From positions 1 through 26,251 of the IMG/VR virus record IMGVR_UViG_3300038825_001176: 26,251 nt of DNA. One strand, written 5' to 3'. This DNA is from a virus. Below, piece by piece: positions 2,060 to 25,628 of this stretch (position 1 is the first letter of the stretch; every line of letters starts with the position of its first letter). A program made the position numbers and the translations under genes. The notes beneath the pieces were generated by a model. It was given only the letters and a program-made list of their open reading frames with translations. It had not been told where the DNA came from and did no database searches.

Positions 2060-3609
2060 TGGGCGTTCGATCTGCATTCCGCGAACTGTTTAGGCGTGAG
2101 CGGCCTCAGCGCCGCCGTAGTTATGCAGGCGCAAGGGTTAGTCGGCTGACTGCTGACTGGGTGACGAGTGGCACCAGCGCAGACAGCGAAATTAAGTCCA
2201 GCATCAAGATGCTGCGCAACCGGGCGCGGCAGCTTTGCAGGGACAACGACTATGCAAAGCAGGCGCTCAGGAGCATCACCAACAATGTGATCGGCCATGG
2301 CATCTATCACCAGTCACAGGTGCGAATGCAGCGTGGCGGTCGGATGGATGAGGCTGTCAATGCCCGCATCCATGCAGCTTGGAAGCGTTGGAGCCACAAG
2401 AGCCGTTGTGATGTCAGCGGCCTGCTGAGTTTTTATGACATGGAGCGGCTGCTATGCCGCAGCTTGGCTGAATCTGGTGAGGTGTTCATCAGGATTATCC
2501 GCCGACCTTTTGGCGACAGCGGCATTCCGTTTGCGCTGCAGGTGCTGGAGTCGGATTATCTGATCGATGACGACGTACAGGCCAGTAAGGACGGCAAGAC
2601 CGTCCGCATGGGCATTGAGCGGGATGAGTATCTGCGCCCGATTGCCTATAACTTCTACGCCAACCACCCCGGCGATGTTTACGCCGGGAATGTGCGCACA
2701 ACACGCCGCATCCGTGTTGATGCTGATGATGTCATCCATTTGTTCATCCCTGAGCGTCCGAGTCAGACGCGCGGCGTCACTTGGTTTGCATCAGCGTTGC
2801 AGCGTCTGCACATGCTCGACGGTTATGAGAACGCTGAGCTTGTGCGTGCGCGGGCTAGCAGCGCATTGATGGGATTCATCACCAGCCCTGAGGGCGAGCT
2901 TATTGGTGACGACGTTGTAGATGGTGAGCGGGTCACAGACTTTCAGCCTGGCGTGTTCAAGTACTTGGATCCCGGCCAATCGGTTGAGGTGCCACAGCTT
3001 GATGCTCCTGATGGTCAGCTCGAAGCGTTTACGCGGTCAATGCTGCGCGCTGCGGCCGCTGGAATTGGGGTGAGTTTCGAGAGCATTTCGAAGAACTACA
3101 GTCAATCGAATTACAGCAGCAGTCGGCTGAGCTTGCTTGAGGAGCGCGACACATATAAGTGTCTGCAGCGTTATTTCATCGAAAACTTCCATCAGATCGT
3201 TTTCGAGAAATGGATGGACATGGCGGTGTTGAGCGGAACGCTGAACCTGCCGGGTTATGAGACTGACCCTGATCGTTATCGCGCCAGCAAGTGGGTGCCG
3301 CGCAGCTGGGAATGGGTTGATCCTCAGAAAGAAGTCGCGGCCTACAAGGCAGCAGTCCGCAGCGGCTTTAAGACACTTGGCCAAGTCATCAGCGAGCAAG
3401 GCGGTGACATTGAAGAGGTGCTAACGATGCGTCAGGCCGAGCTGGCAATGCTGGATGAGAAGAACATCATCACGGACACCGATCCGAGCGAGGTCAATGG
3501 TGGCGGTGGTGTTCAGCCTGGCTTAGGCATGGGCGCAATCCCAGCCTTCGAGGACACTGAGCCACCGGTATCTGACGAGGAGGAGGTCCAGGAAGATGGC
3601 GACGATTGA
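2059..3609 (+). CDS. Portal protein, lambda gpB family
   Basis: This is the dodecameric ring at the capsid vertex through which DNA is pumped and to which the tail joins. At 516 aa it is close to lambda gpB (533 aa). Family signs in order are an Arg-rich start, NDYAKQALRSITNNVIGHGI, SLAESGEVFIRIIRRPFGDSG, the LQVLESDYL segment, VDADDVIHLFIPERPSQTRG, and ASSALMGFITSPEGE. Near the end SYSQSNYSSSR-like spacing is seen as KNYSQSNYSSSRLSLLEERD, then an acidic tail. It starts on an ATG overlapping the previous TGA and ends 14 bases inside the protease-capsid gene. The acidic C-terminus (SDEEEVQEDGDD) is coded in that overlap. Confidence 0.92.
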   Translation: MGVRSAFRELFRRERPQRRRSYAGARVSRLTADWVTSGTSADSEIKSSIKMLRNRARQLCRDNDYAKQALRSITNNVIGHGIYHQSQVRMQRGGRMDEAVNARIHAAWKRWSHKSRCDVSGLLSFYDMERLLCRSLAESGEVFIRIIRRPFGDSGIPFALQVLESDYLIDDDVQASKDGKTVRMGIERDEYLRPIAYNFYANHPGDVYAGNVRTTRRIRVDADDVIHLFIPERPSQTRGVTWFASALQRLHMLDGYENAELVRARASSALMGFITSPEGELIGDDVVDGERVTDFQPGVFKYLDPGQSVEVPQLDAPDGQLEAFTRSMLRAAAAGIGVSFESISKNYSQSNYSSSRLSLLEERDTYKCLQRYFIENFHQIVFEKWMDMAVLSGTLNLPGYETDPDRYRASKWVPRSWEWVDPQKEVAAYKAAVRSGFKTLGQVISEQGGDIEEVLTMRQAELAMLDEKNIITDTDPSEVNGGGGVQPGLGMGAIPAFEDTEPPVSDEEEVQEDGDD

Positions 3610-5983
3610 AGGCGTTGAGATCAACCTGATGCCAACAGAGGGCATGAGGGAAGAGGCGCAGCGTTATCGGGATTGGAAAGCTGACGGCGAAGCTGGCGGA
3701 ACTGAAGTTGCAGCACGCAGAGCCACGCAGATTCTGAGCGGTGATGAGCTAAGCGCTGACACCGTGATTGCCATGAATGCTTGGTTTGCTCGCCATGAAG
3801 TGGATAAACAAGGCGAAGGTTTTACGCCTGATGAGGATGGTTATCCATCAGCCGGCAGAGTCGCCTGGGCTGCATGGGGAGGAGACGCAGGAATGAGGTG
3901 GAGTAGCGGCAAAGCAGATAGAATCAAAGAAATTCGTGATAGGAGCATGGACACGAATAGGGCAGAACCTGATGAGCTTTCTGTTGGCGATTTTGTCCAG
4001 TGGAACAGCGCCGGAGGGCAGGCAAAAGGCAAGATTGATCGCATCGAACGCGATGGCTCAATCAACGTGCCCGATTCAGAGTTCACCATCAACGGTGATG
4101 AGGATGATCCTGCTGCCTTGATCACTGTTTATCGCGAAGGTGACGAAGGCTGGGAAGAAACTGACGTGCAGGTTGGCCATCGTTTCTCTGCACTGACCAA
4201 GATTGCAGCTCTGCGTTGGCTTGAGGGCAAGACCTACAAGCGCAGCGAAGACACTGCATTTGATGAAGTCGAAGATCGGATTTATGACTTCCCGTTTTCG
4301 AGTGAGCAGCCTGTCGCTCGCTATTTCGGAAATGAAATCCTTAGTCACGAAAAAGGCGCTGCTGATCTCAGTCGCCTGAATGACGGCGCTCCGCTGTTGT
4401 TCAACCACAACCCTGATCGTGTGATCGGAGTTGTGGAGCGTGCGTATATCGACGACGAAAAACGTCGTGGTTATGCGCGCGTGCGGTTCAGCCGCAATGA
4501 GTTCGCGCAGGAAGTCTTGCGCGACGTACGGGACGGAATCATCCGAAACGTGAGCTTTGGCTACGCCATCGACAAGATGGAAGAGAGAAGTAGTGGCGAA
4601 TTTGTTGCTACTTCATGGACTCCTACGGAGGTCTCAGCCGTTGCGATTCCTGCGGATCAAACCGTGGGTTTCGGTCGCTCTCTTTCGGAGTCCGAACCCG
4701 AACCCGCTGCCTCGGCAGCAATATCCACACCACCTGTTCCTGAAATGGAAAACACCACCCCTGACATGGAAGTGGTGCGGGCCGAGGCCGTTGAGGCTGA
4801 GCGTTCCCGCATTGCTGAAGTGACCAGCCTGTGCAACAAGCACGGCATGGAAGATCTGGGCCGTCAGCTCGTCGAGTCTGGCCGTTCGATCAACGAAGCA
4901 CGGGCTGCCGTGCTGGAAAAACTCAACGTCAAAGAGGAGCCCGTGAACATGAAGGCCGCTGAAATTGGCCTCACCGAGAAGGAAAGCCGCAGCTTCTCCT
5001 TCCTGCGTGCCATCAACTACCTGGCCAACCCGACCGATCGCGCCGCCCGTGAGGCTGCTGCGTTCGAGATCGAAGCCTCCGAAGCTGCAGCTGACAAGCT
5101 GGGCCGCGCTTCCCGTGGCATCACCATCCCTGTGGATGTGATGCGTCGCGATCTGAACGTGGGCACTGCCACCGCTGGCGGCAACCTCGTCGAGACCCAG
5201 CTGGATTCCGCCAACTTCATTGATTTGCTGCGGAACGCTTCCGCTCTGGATCAAGCTGGCGCAACCGTGCTGACTGGCCTGTCTGGCAACGTCAACATTC
5301 CCCGTCAGTCTGGTGCTGCTACCGCTTACTGGGTTGCTGAGTCTGGCTCACCCACCGAGTCCCAGCAGACTATCGATCAGGTCGCTCTGACTCCTAAGAC
5401 CTGCGGTGCTTTCACCGACTTCAGCCGCAAGCTGATGATCCAGTCCTCCATCGACGTGGAGAACATGGTGCGCACCGACCTGGCGCGTGTGCTGGCTCTT
5501 GAGATTGACCGCGTTGGTCTTTATGGCTCCGGCTCTTCCAACCAGCCCCTGGGCCTGAAGGACACGACCGGCGTTCTGAGCGAAGACTTCGCCGCCAACA
5601 CCCCGACCTTCGCTGAGGTTGTGGCTCTGGAAAGCGACGTGTCTGGCGCTAACGCTCTGCTGGGTTCTCCTGTCTATGTGATGAACGCTGCAATGGCTGG
5701 CAGCCTCAAGACTGCCACCAAGGATTCTGGCTCTGGTCAGTTCATCCTTCAGGGCGGTGAGGTCAACGGCTATCGCGCTGTGATCTCCAACCAAGTTGAA
5801 AGCAACGACCTCTGGTTCGGCAACTTCTCCGACCTGATCATTGCTTACTTCTCCGGCCTGGATCTGATGGTTGATCCCTTCACTGGCAGCACCTCCGGCA
5901 CCGTCCGCGTGGTCGCTCTGCAGGATGTGGACATCGCAGCCCGCCACGGTGCGAGCTTCTCACGCGGTAACAACACCCTCTGA
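3596..5983 (+). CDS. Fused prohead protease and HK97-fold major capsid protein
   Basis: A single 795-aa frame joins four parts. Residues about 1-115 have an ILSGDELSADTV...GYPSAGRVAWAAWGGDAG motif seen in many phage proteins. Residues about 126-200 (VGDFVQWNSAGGQAKGKI...INVPDSEFTI) look like the small TUDOR-type domain often placed before phage proteases. Residues about 205-330 look like a U35-type prohead protease (LLFNHNPDRVIGVVE, RNVSFGYAID). From about 384 there is a helical delta/scaffold region and then the HK97 capsid fold (TAGGNLVETQL, ALDQAGATVL, PRQSGAATAYWVAESG, ALEIDRVGLYGSGSSNQPLG). The protease would cut the scaffold from the shell protein. An internal ATG at 4949 has a good Shine-Dalgarno sequence. 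Codon use changes near 4745. Confidence 0.9.
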   Translation: MATIEGVEINLMPTEGMREEAQRYRDWKADGEAGGTEVAARRATQILSGDELSADTVIAMNAWFARHEVDKQGEGFTPDEDGYPSAGRVAWAAWGGDAGMRWSSGKADRIKEIRDRSMDTNRAEPDELSVGDFVQWNSAGGQAKGKIDRIERDGSINVPDSEFTINGDEDDPAALITVYREGDEGWEETDVQVGHRFSALTKIAALRWLEGKTYKRSEDTAFDEVEDRIYDFPFSSEQPVARYFGNEILSHEKGAADLSRLNDGAPLLFNHNPDRVIGVVERAYIDDEKRRGYARVRFSRNEFAQEVLRDVRDGIIRNVSFGYAIDKMEERSSGEFVATSWTPTEVSAVAIPADQTVGFGRSLSESEPEPAASAAISTPPVPEMENTTPDMEVVRAEAVEAERSRIAEVTSLCNKHGMEDLGRQLVESGRSINEARAAVLEKLNVKEEPVNMKAAEIGLTEKESRSFSFLRAINYLANPTDRAAREAAAFEIEASEAAADKLGRASRGITIPVDVMRRDLNVGTATAGGNLVETQLDSANFIDLLRNASALDQAGATVLTGLSGNVNIPRQSGAATAYWVAESGSPTESQQTIDQVALTPKTCGAFTDFSRKLMIQSSIDVENMVRTDLARVLALEIDRVGLYGSGSSNQPLGLKDTTGVLSEDFAANTPTFAEVVALESDVSGANALLGSPVYVMNAAMAGSLKTATKDSGSGQFILQGGEVNGYRAVISNQVESNDLWFGNFSDLIIAYFSGLDLMVDPFTGSTSGTVRVVALQDVDIAARHGASFSRGNNTL
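4933..4951 (+). promoter_or_regulatory. Possible internal ribosome binding site and start for the capsid part
   Basis: AGAGGAG at 4933-4939 is followed by 9 nt and an in-frame ATG at 4949-4951 (Met 452 of the fusion). Starting there gives a 344-aa protein made of the end of the delta domain plus the full capsid fold. This could give extra capsid copies without protease. It is inferred from sequence only. The motif also encodes KEEP, so coincidence is possible. Confidence 0.4.
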
Positions 5984-6574: not shown

Positions 6575-6853
6575 ATGGCAATCACTGAGGATCTCGACGT
6601 TTTCATGGCTGATTTTGGCGTTAGCTGCACAGCTGGTGCCACGACCGCTAATGGAATTCTCGACATGCCCGGTGAGGTGGTGGCTGGGGGGATGGTCTTG
6701 TCAACGGACTATTCCCTCACCACTCGTTTTTCAAATTTTGGAACTTTAATTAGTGGTGACTCAATCACCGTTGATGGAACTGCTTACACGGTGAGAGAGA
6801 ACCGGCCTATCGGCGATGGCAAGTTCGTCGAGATCGCATTGCAGAAAACCTAA
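6575..6853 (+). CDS. Head-tail connector protein, gpFII-like
   Basis: This is a 92-aa beta-rich protein. The pattern of an acidic N-terminal helix (MAITEDLDVFMADFG) followed by beta strands and a GDSITVDGTAYTVRE hairpin matches small head-tail attachment proteins of the lambda gpFII type, which form the ring between head and tail tube. It lies between the capsid block and the tail terminator, as expected. Sequence similarity to gpFII is weak in this family, so the call leans on order and size. It starts 3 nt after the previous stop, and its stop shares an A with the next start (TAATG). Confidence 0.65.
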   Translation: MAITEDLDVFMADFGVSCTAGATTANGILDMPGEVVAGGMVLSTDYSLTTRFSNFGTLISGDSITVDGTAYTVRENRPIGDGKFVEIALQKT

Positions 6854-7488
6854 TGGCCATTCAAAAGGTTGACAGTCGAGCGGGTTGGGCAGCTAGAAAC
6901 CCTCTGCTGCTGTCAGGCGAGATTGGCCTTGAGAAAGAGACTGGCAACCAAAAGATTGGCAATGGCCGTCAGCAGTGGAACAATCTTCAGTATTTCGGCA
7001 GCCCTGGTTATTGGGCTGAGTTCTCAAGCGATACAGATCAAACGACAACAGCAAACACGCCAACGGCTGTCACCTTTAACAAGGCCAACGCACACAGCCA
7101 TGGCGTCAAGGTCATTTCTGACAGCAGGCTGACGGTCGAGCATCCAGGCGTTTACGTTTTTGAGATCAATCTGCAGCTGTCCAATGACGACACGCAGATT
7201 CATGACGTGGACTTCTGGCTAAGGAAGAACAACGCAGGGGATGCAGGGAATTTAGAGCTGACGGCAAACACGGCGAGCGTCATTGAAAAGCACGGCGGTG
7301 TTCAGGGGGCGAACAACTTGCTTCTAGATCACACCTTGAAACTTGAAGGCAATGACTACATTGAAATTATGTGGGCACCGACAGACGCAAACATTTTGTT
7401 AAAAGCGGCTGCCGCCATCTCTAGCCCCTACGCACGCCCTGCGCGGCCTAGCGTGGTTTGCAACATCTTTGAAATTGCTGGGGCTTAG
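6853..7488 (+). CDS. C1q/TNF-like jelly-roll protein with fibre attachment motif (head or neck fibre candidate)
   Basis: This is a 211-aa protein. Residues 8-45 carry the pattern NPLLLSGEIGLEKETGNQKIG...W, the same module found at the start of the long tail fibre at 14866. Residues about 55-211 look like a trimeric C1q/TNF-type jelly roll: SHGVKVISDSRLTVEHPGVY, VFEINLQLS, VDFWLRKN, LEGNDYIEIMW and a final beta strand. I remember similar domains in marine cyanophage structural proteins. The gene lies in the neck region rather than with the tail fibre, so a head or neck fibre is a reasonable guess. Surface or sugar binding is inferred, not shown. Confidence 0.72.
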   Translation: MAIQKVDSRAGWAARNPLLLSGEIGLEKETGNQKIGNGRQQWNNLQYFGSPGYWAEFSSDTDQTTTANTPTAVTFNKANAHSHGVKVISDSRLTVEHPGVYVFEINLQLSNDDTQIHDVDFWLRKNNAGDAGNLELTANTASVIEKHGGVQGANNLLLDHTLKLEGNDYIEIMWAPTDANILLKAAAAISSPYARPARPSVVCNIFEIAGA

Positions 7489-7957: not shown

Positions 7958-8896
7958 ATGCCACTGCTATCTCGTAAGCGGCTACTGCTAGCCAAGCTGG
8001 AAACGACTGTGGGCACTGACCCGACACCTGTTGTCGGCAGTGATGCAATCTTAGTGCGGAACATTGAAGTCACTCCGCTTGAGGTTGACACGGTCAATCG
8101 TGAGTTAATTCGTCCTTTCCTGGGCCAAGCTGATCAGTTGCTCGCACAGCAGCGAGTGTTGGTGAATTTCGAGGTTGAACTGGCCGGTTCTGGCACTGCC
8201 GGTACTGCACCGGCTTATGGTCCTTTACTGCAGGCTTGCCGCTGTACTGAGACCGTGGTGGCTGACACGAGCGTCACCTACGCGCCAAACAGTGACGCAA
8301 CGCCTAAATCAGTCACCATCTATTTCAACAATGATGGCGTTCTGCATAAGGCCACTGGCTGCCGTGGAACCTTCACACTGAACTGTGAGGTCGGAGCTAT
8401 TCCGTTTATCTCCTTTGAGATGACCGGTGTCTTTAATGCTCCTTCAGACGTTTCCATCAGCGCGCCTACTTATGCCGATCAGGCTGCGCCTTTGGTCTTT
8501 AAGAACGGCAATTCATCGAGCTTCCAGGTGTTCAGCTACAGCGGCGCAGTGCAGTCGCTGAGCTTTGAGCTGGCTAATGAGGTGATCTACCGCGAGTTGG
8601 TCGGCGGAACCAAGAGCATCGACGTTGTAAACCGCGCTCCCTCTGGTGAGTGTGTAATTGAGGCAACAACGATTGCAACTAAGGACTTTTTCACTGCAGC
8701 CACGGGCAGCAGCACAGGGAACCTGACTTTCCAGCACGGAAGCACAGCTGGCAACATTGCCACATTTACCGCTGCACAAATTGACCTTGGTGGTCCTTCT
8801 TACAGCGATCAAGATGGCATTCAGATGCTAACTTTGCCGTACATTGCCACGCCAACATCAGCGGGCAATAATGAATTCAGTTTGGTTTACACCTAA
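7958..8896 (+). CDS. Major tail protein (tail tube)
   Basis: This is a 312-aa protein whose hexameric rings build the tail tube. The N-terminus KRLLLAKLETTVGTDPTPV followed by NIEVTPLEVDTVNRELIRP is typical of siphovirus tube proteins. The middle has GPLLQACRCTETV and a beta-rich region, and the C-terminus repeats a tube-like domain (FELANEVIYRELVGGTKSIDVVNR, AQIDLGGPSYSDQDG). A 38-nt spacer precedes it, the longest gap in the operon up to here. Its stop overlaps the next ATG as TAATG. Confidence 0.88.
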   Translation: MPLLSRKRLLLAKLETTVGTDPTPVVGSDAILVRNIEVTPLEVDTVNRELIRPFLGQADQLLAQQRVLVNFEVELAGSGTAGTAPAYGPLLQACRCTETVVADTSVTYAPNSDATPKSVTIYFNNDGVLHKATGCRGTFTLNCEVGAIPFISFEMTGVFNAPSDVSISAPTYADQAAPLVFKNGNSSSFQVFSYSGAVQSLSFELANEVIYRELVGGTKSIDVVNRAPSGECVIEATTIATKDFFTAATGSSTGNLTFQHGSTAGNIATFTAAQIDLGGPSYSDQDGIQMLTLPYIATPTSAGNNEFSLVYT

Positions 8897-9258
8897 TGGC
8901 GCTTGTCCTTAAGGACTCTGATTCCTACAGCTGGCCGATTGTTTATCGGCAACCTGTATCAGGAGGGCGGCGAGAGAAGCAAGAGTTTGAGGCAGAATTC
9001 AAGCGTCTGCCTCAATCTCGCATTACTGAGATTCAAGAGCTTGTGCAGCAACGCATTGATGGCGCTGAGATTGAGATCTCAGACGTAAGCATTGCTGATG
9101 AGGTCGTTGTTGGCTGGGAGGGCATCGTTGACGGAGACGGTGAGCCAATCCCGTACACGCGACGGACTAAAGAGCAGCTGTTAGAGCTGCCAATGATGGC
9201 CGGCACTCTGATCGAGGCTTATTTCAACTCGCTTGTGGAGGAGAAGCGGGGAAACTGA
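8896..9258 (+). CDS. Tail assembly chaperone, gpG-like (upstream frame)
   Basis: This is a 120-aa cytoplasmic chaperone that coats the tape measure during tail assembly. It is acidic and helical (RITEIQELVQQRIDGAEIEISD), with no signal peptide, and lies between the tube and tape measure genes as lambda G does. It ends in EEKRGN directly before TGA. The last two sense codons form the canonical slippery heptamer GGGAAAC, so a minority of ribosomes should shift -1 and make a 227-aa fusion with the following frame, as lambda gpGT is made. Confidence 0.88.
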   Translation: MALVLKDSDSYSWPIVYRQPVSGGRREKQEFEAEFKRLPQSRITEIQELVQQRIDGAEIEISDVSIADEVVVGWEGIVDGDGEPIPYTRRTKEQLLELPMMAGTLIEAYFNSLVEEKRGN

Positions 9259-9290
9259 TTGGCGCCGCTAAGTATTGGGCTGGCGGCGTT
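9237..9290 (+). promoter_or_regulatory. Programmed -1 ribosomal frameshift signal
   Basis: Three elements are seen. First is a Shine-Dalgarno-like GGAGGAG at 9237-9243. Second is the slippery heptamer G-GGA-AAC at 9249-9255, next to the zero-frame TGA at 9256-9258. Third is a stem-loop whose arms CGCCGC (9263-9268) and GCGGCG (9283-9288) pair perfectly, 7 nt after the heptamer, with G-U pairs able to lengthen it. Lambda uses GGGAAAG at the same place. A stimulator, a heptamer and a stem in this spacing recall bacterial dnaX. The efficiency cannot be read from sequence. Confidence 0.85.
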
Positions 9291-9578
9291 GAGATCGATG
9301 ACACAGCAGAGGACGCGAAGCTGTTTGGCCTTGAGATGCCAGACAAAAAGCGCGTCAAAGATTTTGGGGTGATTCCTGCCGCATGGCCTGCTGTTGTCAT
9401 GTTCTTAAGGGTGCAGACGCAATGGCGTGTAGGTTCTGCCGGGATTGTGGGGCTTGATTACAACGCTGTTCGTTGGGTGTTCGAGTTGTATGAGGTCAAA
9501 GAGCCGCGCAAGATGCTCGATGATTTGCAGATCATCGAAGCTACAGTAGTGGAGACCTTGAATCAGCGCGAGAAATAG
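9255..9578 (+). CDS. Tail assembly chaperone, T-part of the gpGT-like frameshift product
   Basis: This is the -1 frame portion, 107 residues, read only after slippage on the heptamer ending at 9255. It begins LIGAAKYWAGGVEIDDTAED and runs through PAAWPAVVMFLRVQTQW to the stop at 9576-9578. The full fusion is 227 aa from 8896. No start codon with a clear ribosome site precedes the conserved part; the first ATG (9336) would cut off 27 residues that look coding, which favours frameshifting over independent initiation. In lambda the T domain binds the tail tube protein, and the same role is likely here. Confidence 0.85.
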   Translation: MIGAAKYWAGGVEIDDTAEDAKLFGLEMPDKKRVKDFGVIPAAWPAVVMFLRVQTQWRVGSAGIVGLDYNAVRWVFELYEVKEPRKMLDDLQIIEATVVETLNQREK

Positions 9579-9580
9579 CC

Positions 9581-11308
9581 ATGGCTATGGACATGACCAC
9601 CGCGCTGACTATTAAGGCGAACGTTGTTGGTCAAAGCCAGATCACAGGGCTGCAGAACGGATTAGGAAAAGTCACAACTCAGACAAACAAAGCGGCTGGC
9701 GCCATGGGTCGCTTTAAGGCTGCTGCTGGTGGAGCGCTTGGCGCAATGCGCGGCTTGTTGCCTGTGATTGGCGTTGGTGCGATTGGAGCGTTTGCAAAAA
9801 AGAGTCTTGATGCGGCCGATTCCATGTCGAAGTTGTCACAGCGCACTGGTGTCGCTGCTCCGATGCTTGACAAATTCAGACAAGCCGCTGAGCTGAGCGA
9901 TACAAGCATTCAGAGTCTTGAAAAGGCATTCCCAAACTTGGCGCGTGGGATTGATGATGCAGTTGTGAAAGGCACTGGGCCAGCAGCAGAAGCATTTACA
10001 CGCCTTGGTGTTTCATTGACTGATGCGAATGGCAAGGTCCGAGAGACTGATCAAGTCATGCTGGACTTGGCCGATCGTTTCCAGCAAATGCCTGATGGCA
10101 CAGAGAAAGCTGCGCTGGCGTCTCAAATCTTCGGGCAACGTCTTGGCTCTGAGCTAATCCCAATGCTGAACATGGGCGGCGATGCAGTTCGTGGAATGAG
10201 CACTGCATTAACTCAAGAATTTGCAGACAAGTCAGCACAGTTCAATGACAAGCTCACCACGATGGGCGAGAAGCTGGGCCAGCTTGGAATGAAAATAACT
10301 GAAGCGTTGCTTCCTTTTTTAGAAAAGTTGGTTGATGGCGTTGCATTCCTCGCTGAAAAGTTTGCTACGTTGCCTGGCCCTGTTCAAGGTGCTATCGCTG
10401 CTATTGCTGGTATTGCAGCAGTCGGCTTGGTGTTTGCTCCCCTCATTGCTGCAGTAACAACACTTGGCCCGCTCATGATCGGGTTAGTTCCGATTATTGG
10501 CAAAGTCGTGGCAGTCGCTGCAGGTATTGCAGTCCTTGGTGCTGCTTTTAATGCAATCAAGGATATTGTTGTTGAAGTTGCAAGTGCTATTAATGAAGTG
10601 TTTATCAAGCCTATTACTGAAGGCATTCAGGTTTTAGGTGGGCATATTGCAGAGGCTTTTCAAGCTGCATTCAAATCTGTTTCAGAAATTTTTCGCGGAG
10701 CCTTTGAGTTTATCGGCGCTAACTTTGTTAGGCCAGTTTTTGATGCTTTCTCGTCACTTGTAAGTTCTATTGGAAATTCATTTAGAAACGTTTATGACGC
10801 CATCACACGTCCGATCAAGGCGGCATATGATTTTGTCCTCGGCATAGTTCAGAACATCATCAATGCTGTTTCTAGGGCTATTCAAGCCATCGCAAACCTT
10901 GGCAGAAGGCGATCTTCGTCTAATACCGAAACTGCTGCTCAAGGTGCTTATTGGCGTGGCGGATTCCAAGCGTTCGCCAATGGTGGTGTTGTCAATGGGC
11001 CAACGCTTGGCTTGATCGGGGAGGGTGGCGAGAGTGAATACATTGTGCCTGCTAGCAAAGCTATTGGATTTGCTAATAACATCCTTTCAGGCGTCCGTGG
11101 CCCAGGTGCTATCCCTCGTTTTGCAGAGGGCGGCTTTGTTGCCCCTTCTGCCAACGTGAACATTCAAACCGGGCCAGTGACTCAAATGAATGGGCAAAAT
11201 TTTGTCACTACGCAAGACATGAGCAAAGCAGTCAGAGCTGGAGTGCAGCAGACGTTAGATATTCTTCGCCGTGATGGCAATGTGCGCTCACAGCTGGGGC
11301 TTGTCTAA
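9581..11308 (+). CDS. Tail tape measure protein
   Basis: This is a 575-aa protein that sets tail length and is ejected at infection. It shows a tape measure N-terminus (KSLDAADSMSKLSQRTGV, ELSDTSIQSLEKAF), a coiled, Ala/Lys-rich middle, strong hydrophobic segments around residues 265-325 (GAIAAIAGIAAVGLVFAPLI and following) and a C-terminal FANGGVVNGPTLGLIGEGG motif typical of the family. At about 0.15 nm per residue the tail would be near 85 nm, shorter than lambda's 150 nm. Start ATG at 9581 follows the T-frame stop by 2 nt. Its stop overlaps the next gene (TAATG). Confidence 0.93.
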   Translation: MAMDMTTALTIKANVVGQSQITGLQNGLGKVTTQTNKAAGAMGRFKAAAGGALGAMRGLLPVIGVGAIGAFAKKSLDAADSMSKLSQRTGVAAPMLDKFRQAAELSDTSIQSLEKAFPNLARGIDDAVVKGTGPAAEAFTRLGVSLTDANGKVRETDQVMLDLADRFQQMPDGTEKAALASQIFGQRLGSELIPMLNMGGDAVRGMSTALTQEFADKSAQFNDKLTTMGEKLGQLGMKITEALLPFLEKLVDGVAFLAEKFATLPGPVQGAIAAIAGIAAVGLVFAPLIAAVTTLGPLMIGLVPIIGKVVAVAAGIAVLGAAFNAIKDIVVEVASAINEVFIKPITEGIQVLGGHIAEAFQAAFKSVSEIFRGAFEFIGANFVRPVFDAFSSLVSSIGNSFRNVYDAITRPIKAAYDFVLGIVQNIINAVSRAIQAIANLGRRRSSSNTETAAQGAYWRGGFQAFANGGVVNGPTLGLIGEGGESEYIVPASKAIGFANNILSGVRGPGAIPRFAEGGFVAPSANVNIQTGPVTQMNGQNFVTTQDMSKAVRAGVQQTLDILRRDGNVRSQLGLV

Positions 11309-14368: not shown

Positions 14369-14869
14369 ATGACGTTCCCAGCAATCATTCCATCGAGTCG
14401 GACCTTTAGCCCGGGCGACATCCCGCGATCATTACAGGTTAGCCTTTCTGGTGCTACTGAAGGTTTTAGGCGCGGCAACCGACGCATACAGCAAACGCTG
14501 TCTTTAGGTTTTACTGATCTCAACGAAACGCAGTTAAATCTAATCAAGGCGCATTTTGTTGATCGTGAGGGTACGTTTGGCCTTTTCTATCTCTCGGCTG
14601 AGGCGTGGAACGGTTACACAACACCACCCATCAGCCTGATTAGTGATTACGCCTGGCGCTATGCAGCCCCGCCAACAATTACTGATGGCATTGTCGGTCG
14701 CTGGAGCGTTGACGTTGAGCTGGTCAGCTATGCAATCGATATTGGTGACTTGATTTTCGATGGCTTGACGGCATCGGCAACACCGGCAAGAACCTATATT
14801 CTGGACGGAGGTGCAGCAGCGGCAACGCCTGCTCGTGAATACATCGTTCAATCGACAGGGGCAGCATGA
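14369..14869 (+). CDS. gpM-like minor tail protein, copy 2 with C-terminal extension
   Basis: This 166-aa paralog of the preceding gene has SSRTFSPGDIPRSLQVSLSG, QTLSLGFTDLNETQLNLIKAHF, GTFGLFYLSAEAWNGYTTPP and WRYAAPPTI. It adds about 45 residues at the C-terminus with a repeated A-T-P-A-R-x-Y-I motif (ATPARTYILDGG, ATPAREYIVQS), perhaps a docking tail for the fibre encoded next. The pair may form two rings or a heteromer at the tail tip. It ends in an ATGA overlap with the tail fibre gene. Confidence 0.68.
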   Translation: MTFPAIIPSSRTFSPGDIPRSLQVSLSGATEGFRRGNRRIQQTLSLGFTDLNETQLNLIKAHFVDREGTFGLFYLSAEAWNGYTTPPISLISDYAWRYAAPPTITDGIVGRWSVDVELVSYAIDIGDLIFDGLTASATPARTYILDGGAAAATPAREYIVQSTGAA

Positions 14870-17800
14870 GCATCACCCTCACGGCTCTTCAGAAACAGCG
14901 CCGCGATACTGCGGCTAACTGGACCTCAGCTAATCCAACGCTGTTGGCTGGTGAGCTGGGATATGAGTCAGACACGGGCAAATTCAAGATTGGCGACGGC
15001 TCGACAGCTTGGACTGCGCTTGCTTACACCTATTGGAGTCAGATCAGTGCTTACCCTCTAGCGAGTGCAGACATCGCGAACGACGCGATTGGCGCAGATC
15101 AACTGGCTCACACTGCTGTTACTGCCGGTTCTTATACCGCAGCTGACATCACTGTTGATGCACAAGGCCGGATCACGTCTGCTGCATCTGGAACGATCGC
15201 CACTAGCGAGATTGCCAACGATGCTGTCACTCCAGAGAAACTAGAAGACACCAGTGTTACCGCTGGAAGTTATACGGCTGCTGACATTACCGTTGATGCC
15301 CAGGGCCGGATCACTGCCGCAGCAAACGGGCAGATTGGGCCAAGTGAACTTGCTGATACTGCAGTTACAGCTGGTAGCTACACAGCTGCTGACATCACGG
15401 TTGATGCTCAAGGTCGAATCACTGCCGCAGCATCAGGCACGATCGGCACAACTCAGATTGATAACGACGCCGTAACGGCTGAGAAATTGGCCGACACAAG
15501 CGTGACGGCTGGAAGTTACACAGCGGCTGATATTACTGTTGATGCGCAAGGACGCATTACTGCTGCAGCCAGCGGCACGATTGCAACTTCCGAAATTGCT
15601 AACGGGGCTGTTACCTCAGCCAAACTAGACACCAACATTGATATTGCCGGCACTCTTGATGTCACTGGAGTTGCCACATTCGACAACAACGTTGTTGTCA
15701 CGGGTGATCTGACCGTCAACGGCACAACCACTACGATCAACAGCACAACGCTGGAGGTCGATGACAAAAACATCGAGCTGGGCACTGTTGCCACCCCGTC
15801 AGACACTACGGCCAACGGTGGGGGCCTGACACTCAAGGGGTCTACAGATCACACAATTATTTGGACAAACAGCACCGACAGTTGGGATTTTTCTGAGCAC
15901 CTCAACATCGCTAGTGCCAAAGAGTTTCGCATTGCAGGCACTAAGGTTCTTGATGCAACCAGCCTTGGCAGTGCTGTTGTCAGTTCAAGCCTGACAAGCG
16001 TTGGCACGATCACAACCGGCGTTTGGAATGGCACGCCAATCGCGACTGATTACATTGCCAACGATTCTGTAACGGCTGACAAGCTGGCAGACACAAGTGT
16101 TACTGCTGGTAGTTATACGGCTGCTGATATTACGGTTGACGCGCAAGGCCGAATCACCTCTGCAGCATCAGGAACTATTGGAACAAATGAAATTGCCAAC
16201 GATGCTGTAACCGCAGATAAACTTGAAGACACTTCTGTGACCGCTGGCAGCTATACGCTGAGCAGCATTACTGTTGACGCGCAAGGCCGTATCACAGCTG
16301 CGTCGAGTGGCACTGCTGCTGACACTGACAAGATCGCCGAAGGCAACACAGAGGCTGAGGTTGTTGATACCGGCTCTGATGGGCACTTCAAGGTCACAAC
16401 AGAGAATACTGAGCGAATCAGGGTCGGGCCGGCAGGCCAGATCGGTATTGCGGGTGCGAACTACGGCACCAGCGGTCAGGTTTTAACAAGTGGTGGCGCA
16501 TCAGGTGCTGTTAGCTGGGCAGATGCTGCAAGTGGTGGTCCTTCTTTTACTGCTACGGCATCAGGCGCTCTTGCTAATGGCGACACTGTGATTGTTAAGT
16601 CTGACGGCAAAGTGGCAGCTGTGGCAAGTACAACAATTACTGCTGCAGTTGGAACTGAAGAAACTTTCGAAGCGAGTGCTTTAAATACTTCTCTCAGTCG
16701 TGGCACTAGATCAGTTTATGATGCGAGTACAAATAAAATAGTTACTGCGTATGTGATGAGCAGTAACAATGAATTGAAAGCAGTAGTTAGTTCTATTAGC
16801 GACACAACTCCTAGTTTTGGCACAGCGACATCACTGGGTAACAGCAAAGATCAGCCTGTAATAGCGTGCAACGGGTCTGGCAAAGTTGTTATTGCTTATA
16901 GAGATGAAGGTAATAGCGATTACGGGACTGCTATTGTTGGCACAATTAGTGGCACTTCAATTAGTTTTGGCACTGCCGTTGTTTACAACAGCAGCAACAC
17001 TCAGCATCAGACTATTGTATATGATGAAAATGCGGACAAATTTGTAATTGCATATTATGACGCTGGAAACTCTAGGACCAGTGCAATCGTGGGCACGGTA
17101 AGCGGCACATCAATTAGTTTTGGCACAGAAGTTGAAATGTTTTCAGCTTCAACTGGTGGCATAGACGCTGCATATGACCCTGTAGCACAAAAGTGTGTGT
17201 TCTTTGCGATGCTAAATGCTAGCGATGATAAAGCAATCGTTGGCACTATAAGTGGTACATCAATTAGTTTCGGCACGGCAACAACCTTTTCAACTGCTGA
17301 CGCAATAAATACAAATGTAGTTTACGATTCAAGCGCTGAAAAATTCATTGCTGTCTACGAGGAAGATGGTTCATCCGATAAATTATATGCGATAGTTGGC
17401 ACAGTATCTGGCACTTCAATAAGTGTAGGAACAAAGGTAGAGTTGACAACATCAGCTGTAGACCATGTTGCCGCTGCGTATGATGCGCAAGCCGATAAAA
17501 CCTTGGTTGCATATAAGACTTCTACAAATACAGGAGTTTTTATTCTTTTGACTACAAGTGGTACAAGTGTCACCGCTAACTCAGAGACTCAATTTGTTAG
17601 TAGCGTTGATGGCACCAGTGCTGTCTATGACGAATCACAAAAACGAGTCGCTATTTCGTACCGTGATGGCAGTGCTGCCGGACGAGGCAAAACCAGGGTT
17701 GTCAGAAATGCGGTCACTACAACAAATCTCACAGCAGAAAATTATATTGGCATTTCAGATGCTGCTTATGCAGACGGAGCTACAGCCACAATTCAAATCG

Positions 17801-17949
17801 TAGGCGCGGTTGACGATGCTCAATCAAGCTTGACGCCCGGTCAATCTTATTTTGTGCAAACGGATGGCAGTTTAAACACAACGGCAGATACGCCTTCTGT
17901 TTTTGCTGGAACGGCGGTTGCTGCAACCAAGCTGATTGTGAAGGGGTGA
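14866..17949 (+). CDS. Long tail fibre with internal repeats and a seven-bladed propeller-like region
   Basis: This is a 1027-aa protein. Residues 10-57 hold the NPTLLAGELGYESDTGKFKIGDG attachment module shared with the C1q-like gene at 6853. Residues 85-245 and 400-485 contain six copies of a DTSVTAGSYTAADITVDAQG-type repeat. Between them is a DLTVNGTTTTINSTTLEVDD region known to me from cyanophage fibres. Residues about 612-950 hold seven roughly 50-residue repeats (Y-D-x-x-x-D/E-K-x-V-x-x-Y and IVGTISGTSISFG), as in a beta-propeller. The last 65 residues (PGQSYFVQTDGSLNTTADTP) are a trimer or chaperone-like end also seen in cyanophage fibres. It is probably the receptor-binding fibre. The propeller section is visibly AT-richer. 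Confidence 0.85.
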   Translation: MSITLTALQKQRRDTAANWTSANPTLLAGELGYESDTGKFKIGDGSTAWTALAYTYWSQISAYPLASADIANDAIGADQLAHTAVTAGSYTAADITVDAQGRITSAASGTIATSEIANDAVTPEKLEDTSVTAGSYTAADITVDAQGRITAAANGQIGPSELADTAVTAGSYTAADITVDAQGRITAAASGTIGTTQIDNDAVTAEKLADTSVTAGSYTAADITVDAQGRITAAASGTIATSEIANGAVTSAKLDTNIDIAGTLDVTGVATFDNNVVVTGDLTVNGTTTTINSTTLEVDDKNIELGTVATPSDTTANGGGLTLKGSTDHTIIWTNSTDSWDFSEHLNIASAKEFRIAGTKVLDATSLGSAVVSSSLTSVGTITTGVWNGTPIATDYIANDSVTADKLADTSVTAGSYTAADITVDAQGRITSAASGTIGTNEIANDAVTADKLEDTSVTAGSYTLSSITVDAQGRITAASSGTAADTDKIAEGNTEAEVVDTGSDGHFKVTTENTERIRVGPAGQIGIAGANYGTSGQVLTSGGASGAVSWADAASGGPSFTATASGALANGDTVIVKSDGKVAAVASTTITAAVGTEETFEASALNTSLSRGTRSVYDASTNKIVTAYVMSSNNELKAVVSSISDTTPSFGTATSLGNSKDQPVIACNGSGKVVIAYRDEGNSDYGTAIVGTISGTSISFGTAVVYNSSNTQHQTIVYDENADKFVIAYYDAGNSRTSAIVGTVSGTSISFGTEVEMFSASTGGIDAAYDPVAQKCVFFAMLNASDDKAIVGTISGTSISFGTATTFSTADAINTNVVYDSSAEKFIAVYEEDGSSDKLYAIVGTVSGTSISVGTKVELTTSAVDHVAAAYDAQADKTLVAYKTSTNTGVFILLTTSGTSVTANSETQFVSSVDGTSAVYDESQKRVAISYRDGSAAGRGKTRVVRNAVTTTNLTAENYIGISDAAYADGATATIQIVGAVDDAQSSLTPGQSYFVQTDGSLNTTADTPSVFAGTAVAATKLIVKG
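15118..15600 (+). repeat. Fibre repeat block A (four copies)
   Basis: Four copies of the repeat containing VTAGSYTAADITVDAQGRIT begin at 15118, 15256, 15364 and 15502, spaced 138, 108 and 138 nt. The protein is nearly identical in each copy while the DNA differs at most synonymous positions, including Ser as TCT in one copy and AGT or AGC in the others. Confidence 0.9.
16060..16320 (+). repeat. Fibre repeat block B (two copies)
   Basis: Two more copies of the same repeat have VTAGSYT starting at 16099 and 16237 (138 nt apart). They are separated from block A by about 460 nt coding a different beta region. The final copy changes AAD to LSS before ITVDAQGRIT. Confidence 0.88.
16700..17715 (+). 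repeat. Seven propeller-like repeats in the fibre
   Basis: Seven repeats of about 46-52 residues share Y-D/N...K-x-V-x-x-Y at their start and GTxSGTSISFGT at their end. The IVGTISGTS-type segments begin near 16934, 17086, 17237 and 17392, a period of about 150 nt. The first, sixth and seventh repeats are more diverged. The size and number of repeats suit a beta-propeller, which is an inference. Confidence 0.7.
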
Positions 17950-23151: not shown

Positions 23152-23664
23152 ATGACGGTTCTGTGTGACTGGGAGATCAGAGCCCGTTGCGGAAAAGGCG
23201 GAATGATTGCCCCGTTTGACTCAGAGCTTCTAAATCCAGCGAGTTTGGATGTGCGGCTGGGCTTGCATCTCATGGTTGAGAACATCTGCGACCCTGAGCT
23301 GCTGCGGATCGACATTTCAGGCAGAACAAAGGACGATCCGTTTCTGCTGGAACCCGGTGAATTTTGCCTGGCTGAAACAGTCGAGCTGTTTAACATCCCT
23401 GATGACATAAGCGCGCAGTTTGCCCTCAAATCGAGCCGAGCCAGGGAGGGCTACAACCATTGCCTTGCAGGCTGGATCGACAACGGATATTCAGGGCGTC
23501 TAACCCTTGAATTGAAGAACGAGCGACTGCATCACCCACTTCCGCTGTATCCCGGCCTAAAGATTGGTCAGATTATCTTTTTCAAGATGACGCCGCCCAT
23601 GCGGACCTATCGAGAGACAGGCCATTACAACAACCACTTGACAGTCATGCCTTCCGTGGCATGA
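23152..23664 (+). CDS. dcd: dCTP deaminase-like nucleotide enzyme
   Basis: This 170-aa protein belongs to the dCTP deaminase/dUTPase superfamily, which makes dUTP or dUMP for dTMP synthesis in infected cells. Motifs in order are NPASLDVRLG (28-37), LEPGEFCLAET (66-76), FALKSSRAREG (90-100), GWIDNGYSGRLTLELKN (107-123) with Glu 120 as the likely catalytic acid, and GLKIGQIIFF (135-144). The SSxAR motif and IDxGYSG favour dCTP deaminase over plain dUTPase; a bifunctional enzyme cannot be excluded. Length is close to the family's 170-195 aa. It is soluble. It follows the peptidase gene by 23 nt. Confidence 0.85.
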   Translation: MTVLCDWEIRARCGKGGMIAPFDSELLNPASLDVRLGLHLMVENICDPELLRIDISGRTKDDPFLLEPGEFCLAETVELFNIPDDISAQFALKSSRAREGYNHCLAGWIDNGYSGRLTLELKNERLHHPLPLYPGLKIGQIIFFKMTPPMRTYRETGHYNNHLTVMPSVA

Positions 23665-24394: not shown

Positions 24395-24576
24395 CAGTTG
24401 AAGAATTTAGAGATGATGGTTTGCAGCGCAGAGTTGATTACGCCGTGATGGCGCTGCTCTGCGTAGTGCTGCAGCTGTGCAGACAGTTGCTTGTCAAGGC
24501 GCACTTGAAAGTGCCCTGAGCGGCGGTTGGCATCTGCCTTGGCTTGCTGTTCGCGTTTCTTGTCGTCCTCAGGCAT
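24394..24576 (-). CDS. Ribbon-helix-helix DNA-binding protein
   Basis: This 60-aa protein has a basic charged lead (PEDDKKREQQAKADANRRSG) and then the short beta strand and two helices of the MetJ/Arc/CopG fold: HFQVRLDKQLSAQLQHYAEQRHHGVINSALQTIISKFF. Such proteins bind DNA as dimers and often repress their own operon. It overlaps the ERF gene by 8 nt and the next gene by 1 nt. The target site is not identifiable here. Confidence 0.72.
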   Translation of the reverse strand: MPEDDKKREQQAKADANRRSGHFQVRLDKQLSAQLQHYAEQRHHGVINSALQTIISKFFN

Positions 24577-25225
24577 TTTCCTGAATCCAAACCTGATGTT
24601 TGCGGCTGGTTATTGCAGGAGCGACCTTAGCGTTGTCGCCTAGCTTGAACGCGAAGCGGAACGACTTGCAGAAGTCCTCGCGCTTGCCTGGGCTCATCTC
24701 GCTGATAAGACCGACGAGCATGTTGCGCTCCTCTGTTGTCAGCGGCTGATCGTCTTTGGCGACACCCTCAACCGCCGGCCCCTTTTTTGGCGTTTGCTGG
24801 GTTTGCAGTTTTGCTGTTGGCTTGCTGTCAGCAAAATCGCCATCAACATCCATATCTGCCGTCAATCCCAGCAGTGCTAGGCAGCTATACCTTTTTAGGT
24901 AGGTACAAGAGGCCCCGAAGTCGTGCAATGCGTTGCGCCCTTTGCCAATAATCATCGGCAAGCGGCTCACAAGCTCAGCGCCGCTGACGTGCAGCAACCG
25001 CGTCACAAGGATCGGATCAACGCCCTCACTCGGCTCAAACGTCTGTGAAATCACAAGACCGTTTTTGATGAGGTGAGGCGTGACAGTTGAAAGCACAGTC
25101 TCAAGGTCAGCAAACTTGCCATATTGCGCATTTGCCGTCTTGCTGATTGCCGGGACAGTTTTGTGAAACTGCACTAGGGCTTCAATCAAGAGCTGTGACG
25201 GTGATGATGGCACCGAGGAAGTCAT
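24569..25225 (-). CDS. erf: ERF-family single-strand annealing protein
   Basis: This 218-aa protein belongs to the ERF recombinase superfamily, which anneals complementary single-stranded DNA during phage replication and repair. Motifs are an N-terminal LLIEALVQFHKTVPAISKTA, GKFADLETVLSTVTPHLIKN, GLVISQTFEPSEG, TRLLHVSGAELVSRLPM, and DFGASCTYLKRYSCLALLGL (the GAxxTYxKRYxLxxLLGL signature), then DMDVDGDF. A linker and a helical tail follow. The frame is open back to 25303; ATG 25225 with AAAGG upstream is chosen because residues before it are coded in RusA and do not look like ERF. Overlap with RusA is 44 nt. Confidence 0.85.
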   Translation of the reverse strand: MTSSVPSSPSQLLIEALVQFHKTVPAISKTANAQYGKFADLETVLSTVTPHLIKNGLVISQTFEPSEGVDPILVTRLLHVSGAELVSRLPMIIGKGRNALHDFGASCTYLKRYSCLALLGLTADMDVDGDFADSKPTAKLQTQQTPKKGPAVEGVAKDDQPLTTEERNMLVGLISEMSPGKREDFCKSFRFAFKLGDNAKVAPAITSRKHQVWIQENA

Positions 25226-25628
25226 CTGTTGCGTACCTTTTGATTGCGTGAATTGAAACGATGCTGGCGTCATTGGCCAGCAAGACTTGGGCAACTGCCT
25301 CACCGAGGCTGTCCCCGATTGCGCGAGTCAATTTGTCGAGATCTGGGGTTTTTGTGTGATGTTCGGGCGCAGAAGCTTTGAGCTTACCGGCGTTGCCACC
25401 AGTGCCGAAATGAGACTTTGGGCGAGGGAAAACAAACTCACAGCGCAATGAAACTGCAGCTGATTTGTTCCAGTCGTCTGGCCTTGCTCGATGTGCTGCA
25501 GATGCAACATCAGTACGCCAACTGCCGAGGGCTTCTCGATTGTTGGCAACAACTCGACTGCCATAGGCTTTCACAGAACCTTGAGGCACAGGAGTGCCAA
25601 GAACGCGGAAGGTGAAACTACTTGGCAT
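25182..25628 (-). CDS. rusA: RusA-type Holliday junction resolvase
   Basis: This 148-aa enzyme cuts four-way DNA junctions made by recombination. It has FRVLGTPVPQGSVKAYGSRV at the start, a FVFPRPKSHF segment, and the catalytic region TPDLDKLTRAIGDSL (Asp 96, Asp 98, Asp 106) followed by NDASIVSIHAIKRYA. Length fits the family (about 120-150 aa). The lysine important in E. coli RusA (position 76, from memory) aligns with Arg 102 here. It overlaps the upstream 50-aa gene by 11 nt. Together with the ERF protein it forms a phage recombination pair. Confidence 0.85.
   Translation of the reverse strand: MPSSFTFRVLGTPVPQGSVKAYGSRVVANNREALGSWRTDVASAAHRARPDDWNKSAAVSLRCEFVFPRPKSHFGTGGNAGKLKASAPEHHTKTPDLDKLTRAIGDSLGEAVAQVLLANDASIVSIHAIKRYATDDFLGAIITVTALD

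Follow-up and report, generated by a model that had tools for sequence, protein, structure and literature searches.

Predicted programmed −1 ribosomal frameshifting on a conserved AAC-ending heptamer in the tail chaperone genes of DUF1799 phages

INTRODUCTION

Phage lambda shifts frame in its tail chaperone genes on the heptamer GGGAAAG, and the founding survey is reportedly that of Xu 2004. The −1 frameshift that joins lambda G to T is established, as is its role in joining the tape measure and tube proteins; that lambda-type phages frameshift at this gene, as a sequence-only reading of the DNA studied here had stated, is in print (PMC5009743). Tail chaperone shift sites have also been reported in phiCbK (AAAAAAC) and Colossus (GGGAAAC) (PMC3556154), in Loki (AAAAAAC, next to the stop codon; PMC5313236), in KL1 (GGGAAAC, next to the stop codon; PMC3483164), and in the archaeal viruses HCTV-1 and HCTV-2 (GGGAAAC/AAAAAAC; PMC5009743). 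GGGAAAC and AAAAAAC are slippery sequences of low efficiency in E. coli, yet they are used by insertion sequences (PMC4066793). In E. coli dnaX, the heptamer is combined with an upstream Shine-Dalgarno (SD) sequence and a downstream hairpin (PMC5009743).

Here, we analyze a lambda-type siphovirus contig of 26,251 bases from an IMG/VR virus record (the window, meaning the whole stretch of DNA analyzed), whose closest named phage is Synechococcus phage S-CBS1, with identities of 58% for G and 60% for T. Our literature search returned no paper linking DUF1799, the domain of this T protein, with frameshifting, and the cyanophage literature held nothing recognizable on this G/T pair; the word "frameshift" is absent from the available part of the S-LBS1 paper (PMC6157547).

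RESULTS

Gene neighborhood and predicted products

In the window, the overlapping reading frames of G and T are flanked by the tail tube gene upstream and by the tape measure gene downstream (Table 1). G also matches phrog_313 (tail assembly chaperone), weakly (E 6.5e-6). Translation of ORF 8896–9258 and of the −1 frame from 9255 confirmed the two products predicted earlier, a G protein of 120 aa and a G-T fusion of 227 aa (120 + 107). The locus shares with lambda the gene position, the frame relation, and a longer product that only a −1 shift late in G would yield (PMC5009743), whereas its heptamer is GGGAAAC and its T is a DUF1799 protein. AlphaFold2 models of T and G had mean pLDDT values of 85 and 86, respectively. 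Searches of the PDB by sequence and by fold with G and T gave no significant match, and thus no link to lambda gpG or gpT or to the fold of known tail chaperones. An Rfam search of the window gave no match. The DUF1799 profile of distant T proteins (A4, positions 66 to 115) weakly resembles the C-terminal half of ribosomal protein L20 (E 0.0026); a fold search with the T model lent an L20-like T no support.

Table 1. Features of the G/T locus and its neighbors in the window
Feature	Coordinates	Strand	Detail
Tail tube protein gene (upstream neighbor)	7958..8896	+	PF18906, E 9.5e-22
G gene (zero frame), tail assembly chaperone of 120 aa	8896..9258	+	phrog_569 (tail), E 1.7e-13
GGAGGAG, SD-like, candidate	9237..9243	+	5 nt before heptamer; first GGAG 8 nt before
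Slippery heptamer G_GGA_AAC (GGGAAAC), predicted −1 shift site	9249..9255	+	In frame of ORF 8896–9258
T extension, −1 frame, 107 aa, DUF1799	9255..9578	+	PF08809, E 8.9e-14; phrog_680, E 4.6e-27
Zero-frame stop TGA, abuts heptamer	9256..9258	+	Abutting in 270/294 distinct loci among the matches listed
Predicted hairpin 3′ of shift site	9261..9290	+	GC core CGCCGC 9263–9268 with GCGGCG 9283–9288
Tail tape measure protein gene (downstream neighbor)	9581..11308	+	phrog_3981, E 5.7e-50

Elsewhere in the window, a 795-aa ORF (3596–5983, +) fuses a prohead serine protease domain (PF04586) with an HK97-type capsid domain (PF05065). Two tail-fiber-like proteins (6853–7488, + and 14866–17949, +) begin with short modules that resemble each other (PF18454 Mtd_N, a weak match in the first); the gene of the first lies directly upstream of the tail terminator gene. 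A dCTP deaminase-like protein (23152–23664, +; PF22769, E 4.5e-30) and an ERF-type single-strand annealing protein (24569–25303, −; PF04404, E 1.6e-15) are also encoded.

The shift site is conserved across relatives

As the sequence-only reading had described, GGGAAAC stands directly against the zero-frame TGA. The occurrence of this heptamer is by itself within chance (1 in the window versus 2.5 expected); its placement is beyond chance, since it is read in frame at the G/T junction and touches the stop, and the equivalent site (GGGAAAC or AAAAAAC) recurs in 292 of the 294 loci listed. Two viral-contig scans yielded 128 loci, and 80 loci, including the window, were left after the removal of identical stretches. 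All 80 carry an in-frame slippery heptamer (AAAAAAC in 55, GGGAAAC in 24, and GGGAAAT in 1). The stop is the very next codon in 65 of them; in the other 15, it comes one codon further on. In-frame AAAAAAC or GGGAAAC was also found in 9/9 loci from bacterial genomes and in 17/17 named phages with cyanobacterial, alpha-, and gammaproteobacterial hosts (selected by hand among the 1,061 records that matched T, with S-CBS3 and RcapMu added), where the stop abuts in 16/17.

Three extra scans with diverse T alignments (up to 80 loci each) led to at least 395 loci, 393 of them with a T match. Among the matches listed, 294 distinct sites comprise 248 AAAAAAC, 44 GGGAAAC, 1 GGGAAAT, and 1 AAAAAAG, and the stop abuts the heptamer in 270 of them; all these totals include the window itself and count loci, which are not independent events. 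Two further loci in that list were too short to judge, and one (L245) was scored as lacking a heptamer in a search that took identical triplets only, so that a mixed triplet scores as "no heptamer." That sole judged locus without a standard heptamer reads AAAAAGC before TGA, around position 1001, which may be a variant or an error. The comparison with relatives that the sequence-only reading had proposed finds the heptamer conserved, as GGGAAAC or AAAAAAC, in 292/294 loci listed. That the two ORFs are one gene broken by sequencing error or pseudogenization has a negligible probability, given the identical split in hundreds of contigs and in 17/17 named phage records.

Among the named relatives, Synechococcus phages S-CBS1, S-CBS3, and S-LBS1 have homologous G and T genes in the −1 frame relation, with AAAAAAC abutting TGA, unlike the GGGAAAC of the window; their records give G and T as separate ORFs, with no shift mentioned. 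Rhodobacter phage RcapMu, with a G protein 29% identical, has GGGAAAC abutting TGA as in the window, and its depositors marked a "potential −1 frameshift" before the DUF1799 ORF. The reported sites of phiCbK, Loki, Colossus, and KL1 are the same as those of the DUF1799 family, a likeness of the heptamer and, in Loki and KL1, of its position next to the stop.

Of the 270 abutting sites among the matches listed, 269 have a heptamer ending in C, although C→T would be silent in both frames. By usage, AAC makes up about 61 to 65% of AAY (847 of 1,304 asparagines, 65%, in the G and T genes), and the adjoining choice between TGA and TAA, likewise silent in both frames, varies 174:69. On a tree of 117 representatives that is poorly resolved, parsimony requires 10 or more interchanges of GGG and AAA, of which well-supported branches force only 4.

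These patterns bear on whether the frame is shifted by RNA polymerase slipping on an A run rather than by the ribosome. Most relatives have AAAAAAC, and hence a run of six A's on which a polymerase could slip, but the window reads GGGGAAAC, with no long run, and GGGAAAC and AAAAAAC swap as whole heptamers with the last C fixed. Tandem tRNA slippage therefore fits and homopolymer slippage does not, and we consider a polymerase origin extremely unlikely.

The T frame appears to be translated from the heptamer onward

T lies in the −1 frame relative to G at every locus with a placed G match and in 17/17 named phages. The first start codon in the T frame of the window is ATG 9336, at T residue 28, and in 72/80 loci no ATG, GTG, or TTG occurs in that frame as far as residue 16. 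Over T codons 2 to 27, the window differs from 23 close relatives at 32, 7, and 184 sites in −1-frame positions 1, 2, and 3, respectively, and the same comparison counts 168 synonymous versus 41 nonsynonymous codon differences and no stops. The third-position bias and the absence of stops, ahead of any start codon, argue that −1-frame translation of this stretch begins at the heptamer itself. Stop-codon readthrough was considered and rejected: the next zero-frame stop, at 9370, would allow a short extension, and substitutions there track the −1 frame, not the zero frame.

In a competing account, T is a separate protein that arises through re-initiation or translational coupling, GGAGGAG being the ribosome binding site. 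GGAGGAG does precede CTG 9255 by 11 nt and ATT 9258 by 14 nt, and the annotators of the named relatives placed the T start further in. Against this stand the scarcity of early start codons just described, the protein-level selection on T residues 2 to 27, several of which are conserved family-wide, and the second T codon, which varies among ATC, ATT, and ATA even in close relatives; re-initiation also gives the heptamer no reason for fixation. The T model opens with a confident helix at residue 2; a protein initiated at ATG 9336 would lack it. We regard separate initiation of T as very unlikely. As first proposed, −1 frameshifting between the paired tail chaperone genes is strongly supported at the sequence level by the frame relation, the conserved heptamer, and the selection on T before any start, and the correct explanation is very probably programmed −1 ribosomal frameshifting where this lambda-type chaperone gene ends, making G and G-T.

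A downstream hairpin is under selection on the window's side of the family

The GC stem noted earlier 7 nt downstream of the heptamer is present as CGCCGC/GCGGCG, and the hairpin that RNAfold predicts is longer than the 6 bp first described, with about 10 bp plus a 2-bp tip. The hairpin segment of the window folds at −17.0 kcal/mol versus a mean of −8.8 kcal/mol in synonymous recodings, which places it at rank 0.01 (stronger than 99%). Ranks of ≤0.05 were obtained for 19/24 close, 9/11 intermediate, and 23/45 distant loci and for 66/117 broad representatives, but for only 1/11 enterobacterial ones, in which the stem does not surpass synonymous recodings. An AT-rich group (L041 to L068) is without the GC stem and folds differently and less convincingly. 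Because of these two groups, the stem is best taken as a feature of the window's side and not of the whole family.

Synonymous change is reduced at T3 to T12 (P 0.0017) and at the stem-arm codons (P 0.0037), with normal control stretches, in tests on the 22 of 24 close relatives that are full length and with P values that ignore shared ancestry. In a covariation analysis of 41 of the 63 distinct 52-nt rows, 94.5% of the cells are paired and 5 cells have changed on both sides; the 22 distant rows outside this set are those with loop insertions or another register, the AT-rich group, and L034. Over all 63 rows, in an ungapped alignment that misregisters loop insertions, 85.7% of the cells are paired and 24 have changed on both sides, and the changed-pair and pair-type counts (2 of 5 measures) fall within shuffles. 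One locus (L097) has changed a stem pair from C-G to U-A at the cost of a Gly-to-Ser substitution in T. These sequence comparisons support the hairpin, which lies within the 5 to 8 nt after the heptamer expected of a dnaX-like signal, as a putative downstream stimulator under selection in the window's clade.

The role of the upstream GGAGGAG

The GGAGGAG seen earlier upstream of the heptamer is indeed present. By the rule of Sharma 2014, which allows a spacing of 6 to 17 nt and covers the window (PMC4066793), an SD-like motif occurs in 52/80 loci (24/24 close, 8/11 intermediate, and 20/45 distant); 28/80 are without one. Synonymous recoding alone would be expected to give the motif in about 15.8/24 close, 5.6/11 intermediate, and 6.0/45 distant loci, the last figure being a crude null based on the window's codon usage. 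The spacing described for SD sequences in −1 shifts is 9 to 14 nt (PMC5009743); 8/80 loci have the motif at that distance, and the window, at 5 to 8 nt, is not among them.

GGAGGAG is largely implied by the codons for Val-Glu-Glu-Lys. We therefore weighed the possibility, compatible with the frameshift itself, that the stimulators are only the hairpin and perhaps the abutting stop, and that GGAGGAG is a by-product of these four residues. This is favored by recoding, which yields the motif in about two-thirds of the close relatives, by the nonsignificant reduction of synonymous change at the four codons (P 0.11 in 22 close relatives), by the short spacing, and by the loci that do without the motif, but the motif is kept in all 24 close relatives, which are closely related to one another, and its frequency in the distant band exceeds the crude expectation. 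On balance, we lean toward the by-product, and a role of GGAGGAG as an SD stimulator is, from its sequence, unproven.

The comparison with dnaX has to be qualified in the same way. The layout is alike; dnaX, however, shifts at about 50% on A_AAA_AAG, whereas the window has an AAC heptamer, an SD spacing of 5 to 8 nt, and a motif found in 52 of the 80 loci, and the dnaX heptamer is matched neither by the GGGAAAC of the window nor in the family, AAAAAAG occurring in 1 of the 294 loci listed. Of the "complete three-part, dnaX-like" signal first described, the heptamer and, in the window's clade, the stem hold, and the SD stimulator is a candidate. Such a combination, supposed earlier to be less usual, is not very rare: besides dnaX, SD sequences are reported at an estimated 56% of insertion sequence elements (PMC5009743), and both stimulators in 9/69 enterobacterial clusters.

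DISCUSSION

Taken as a programmed shift, the locus would work as follows. Most ribosomes would read G_GGA_AAC, stop at TGA, and release the 120-aa G protein, whereas a minority would slip back one base on the heptamer, with tRNA-Gly moving from GGA to GGG and tRNA-Asn from AAC to AAA, aided by the hairpin about 6 nt downstream. The slipped ribosomes would continue in the −1 frame into the 227-aa G-T fusion with its terminal DUF1799 domain. By analogy with lambda, G may coat the tape measure protein, and the scarce G-T molecules may recruit tail tube subunits through their T part. That slippage occurs in the cell, how efficient it is, that the stem stimulates it, and what both products do are inferences.

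In E. coli, heptamers that end in AAG slip far more readily, yet this family keeps AAC. One tentative and rather doubtful idea is that the shift site of the DUF1799 family, in phages and prophages of cyanobacteria and alpha-, beta-, and gammaproteobacteria, is locked to R_RRA_AAC (R being one purine three times) plus an immediate stop, and that the A-site asparagine codon, perhaps through a tRNA wobble modification, sets a low, host-independent G-T ratio. On this idea, the invariant final C, at a base where T would change neither protein, would reflect selection for the pairing of codon and anticodon rather than for the proteins.

The frameshift is a known tailed-phage device, met here in a family where it is mostly unannotated, and AAAAAAC and GGGAAAC sites had already been reported elsewhere. 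In the S-CBS1 record, the pair is split as gp13/gp14 with a late T start; in that of S-LBS1, the G gene, A18, is named an ABC transporter ATPase; and in that of HK639, T is unannotated. For this phage family, the analysis thus amends annotations that usually miss the fusion, split G and T, and misplace T starts. The family-wide fixation of AAC is its most interesting by-product: 294 distinct sites among the matches listed retain a "weak" bacterial slippery sequence, and the avoidance of the most slippery motifs becomes directly testable.
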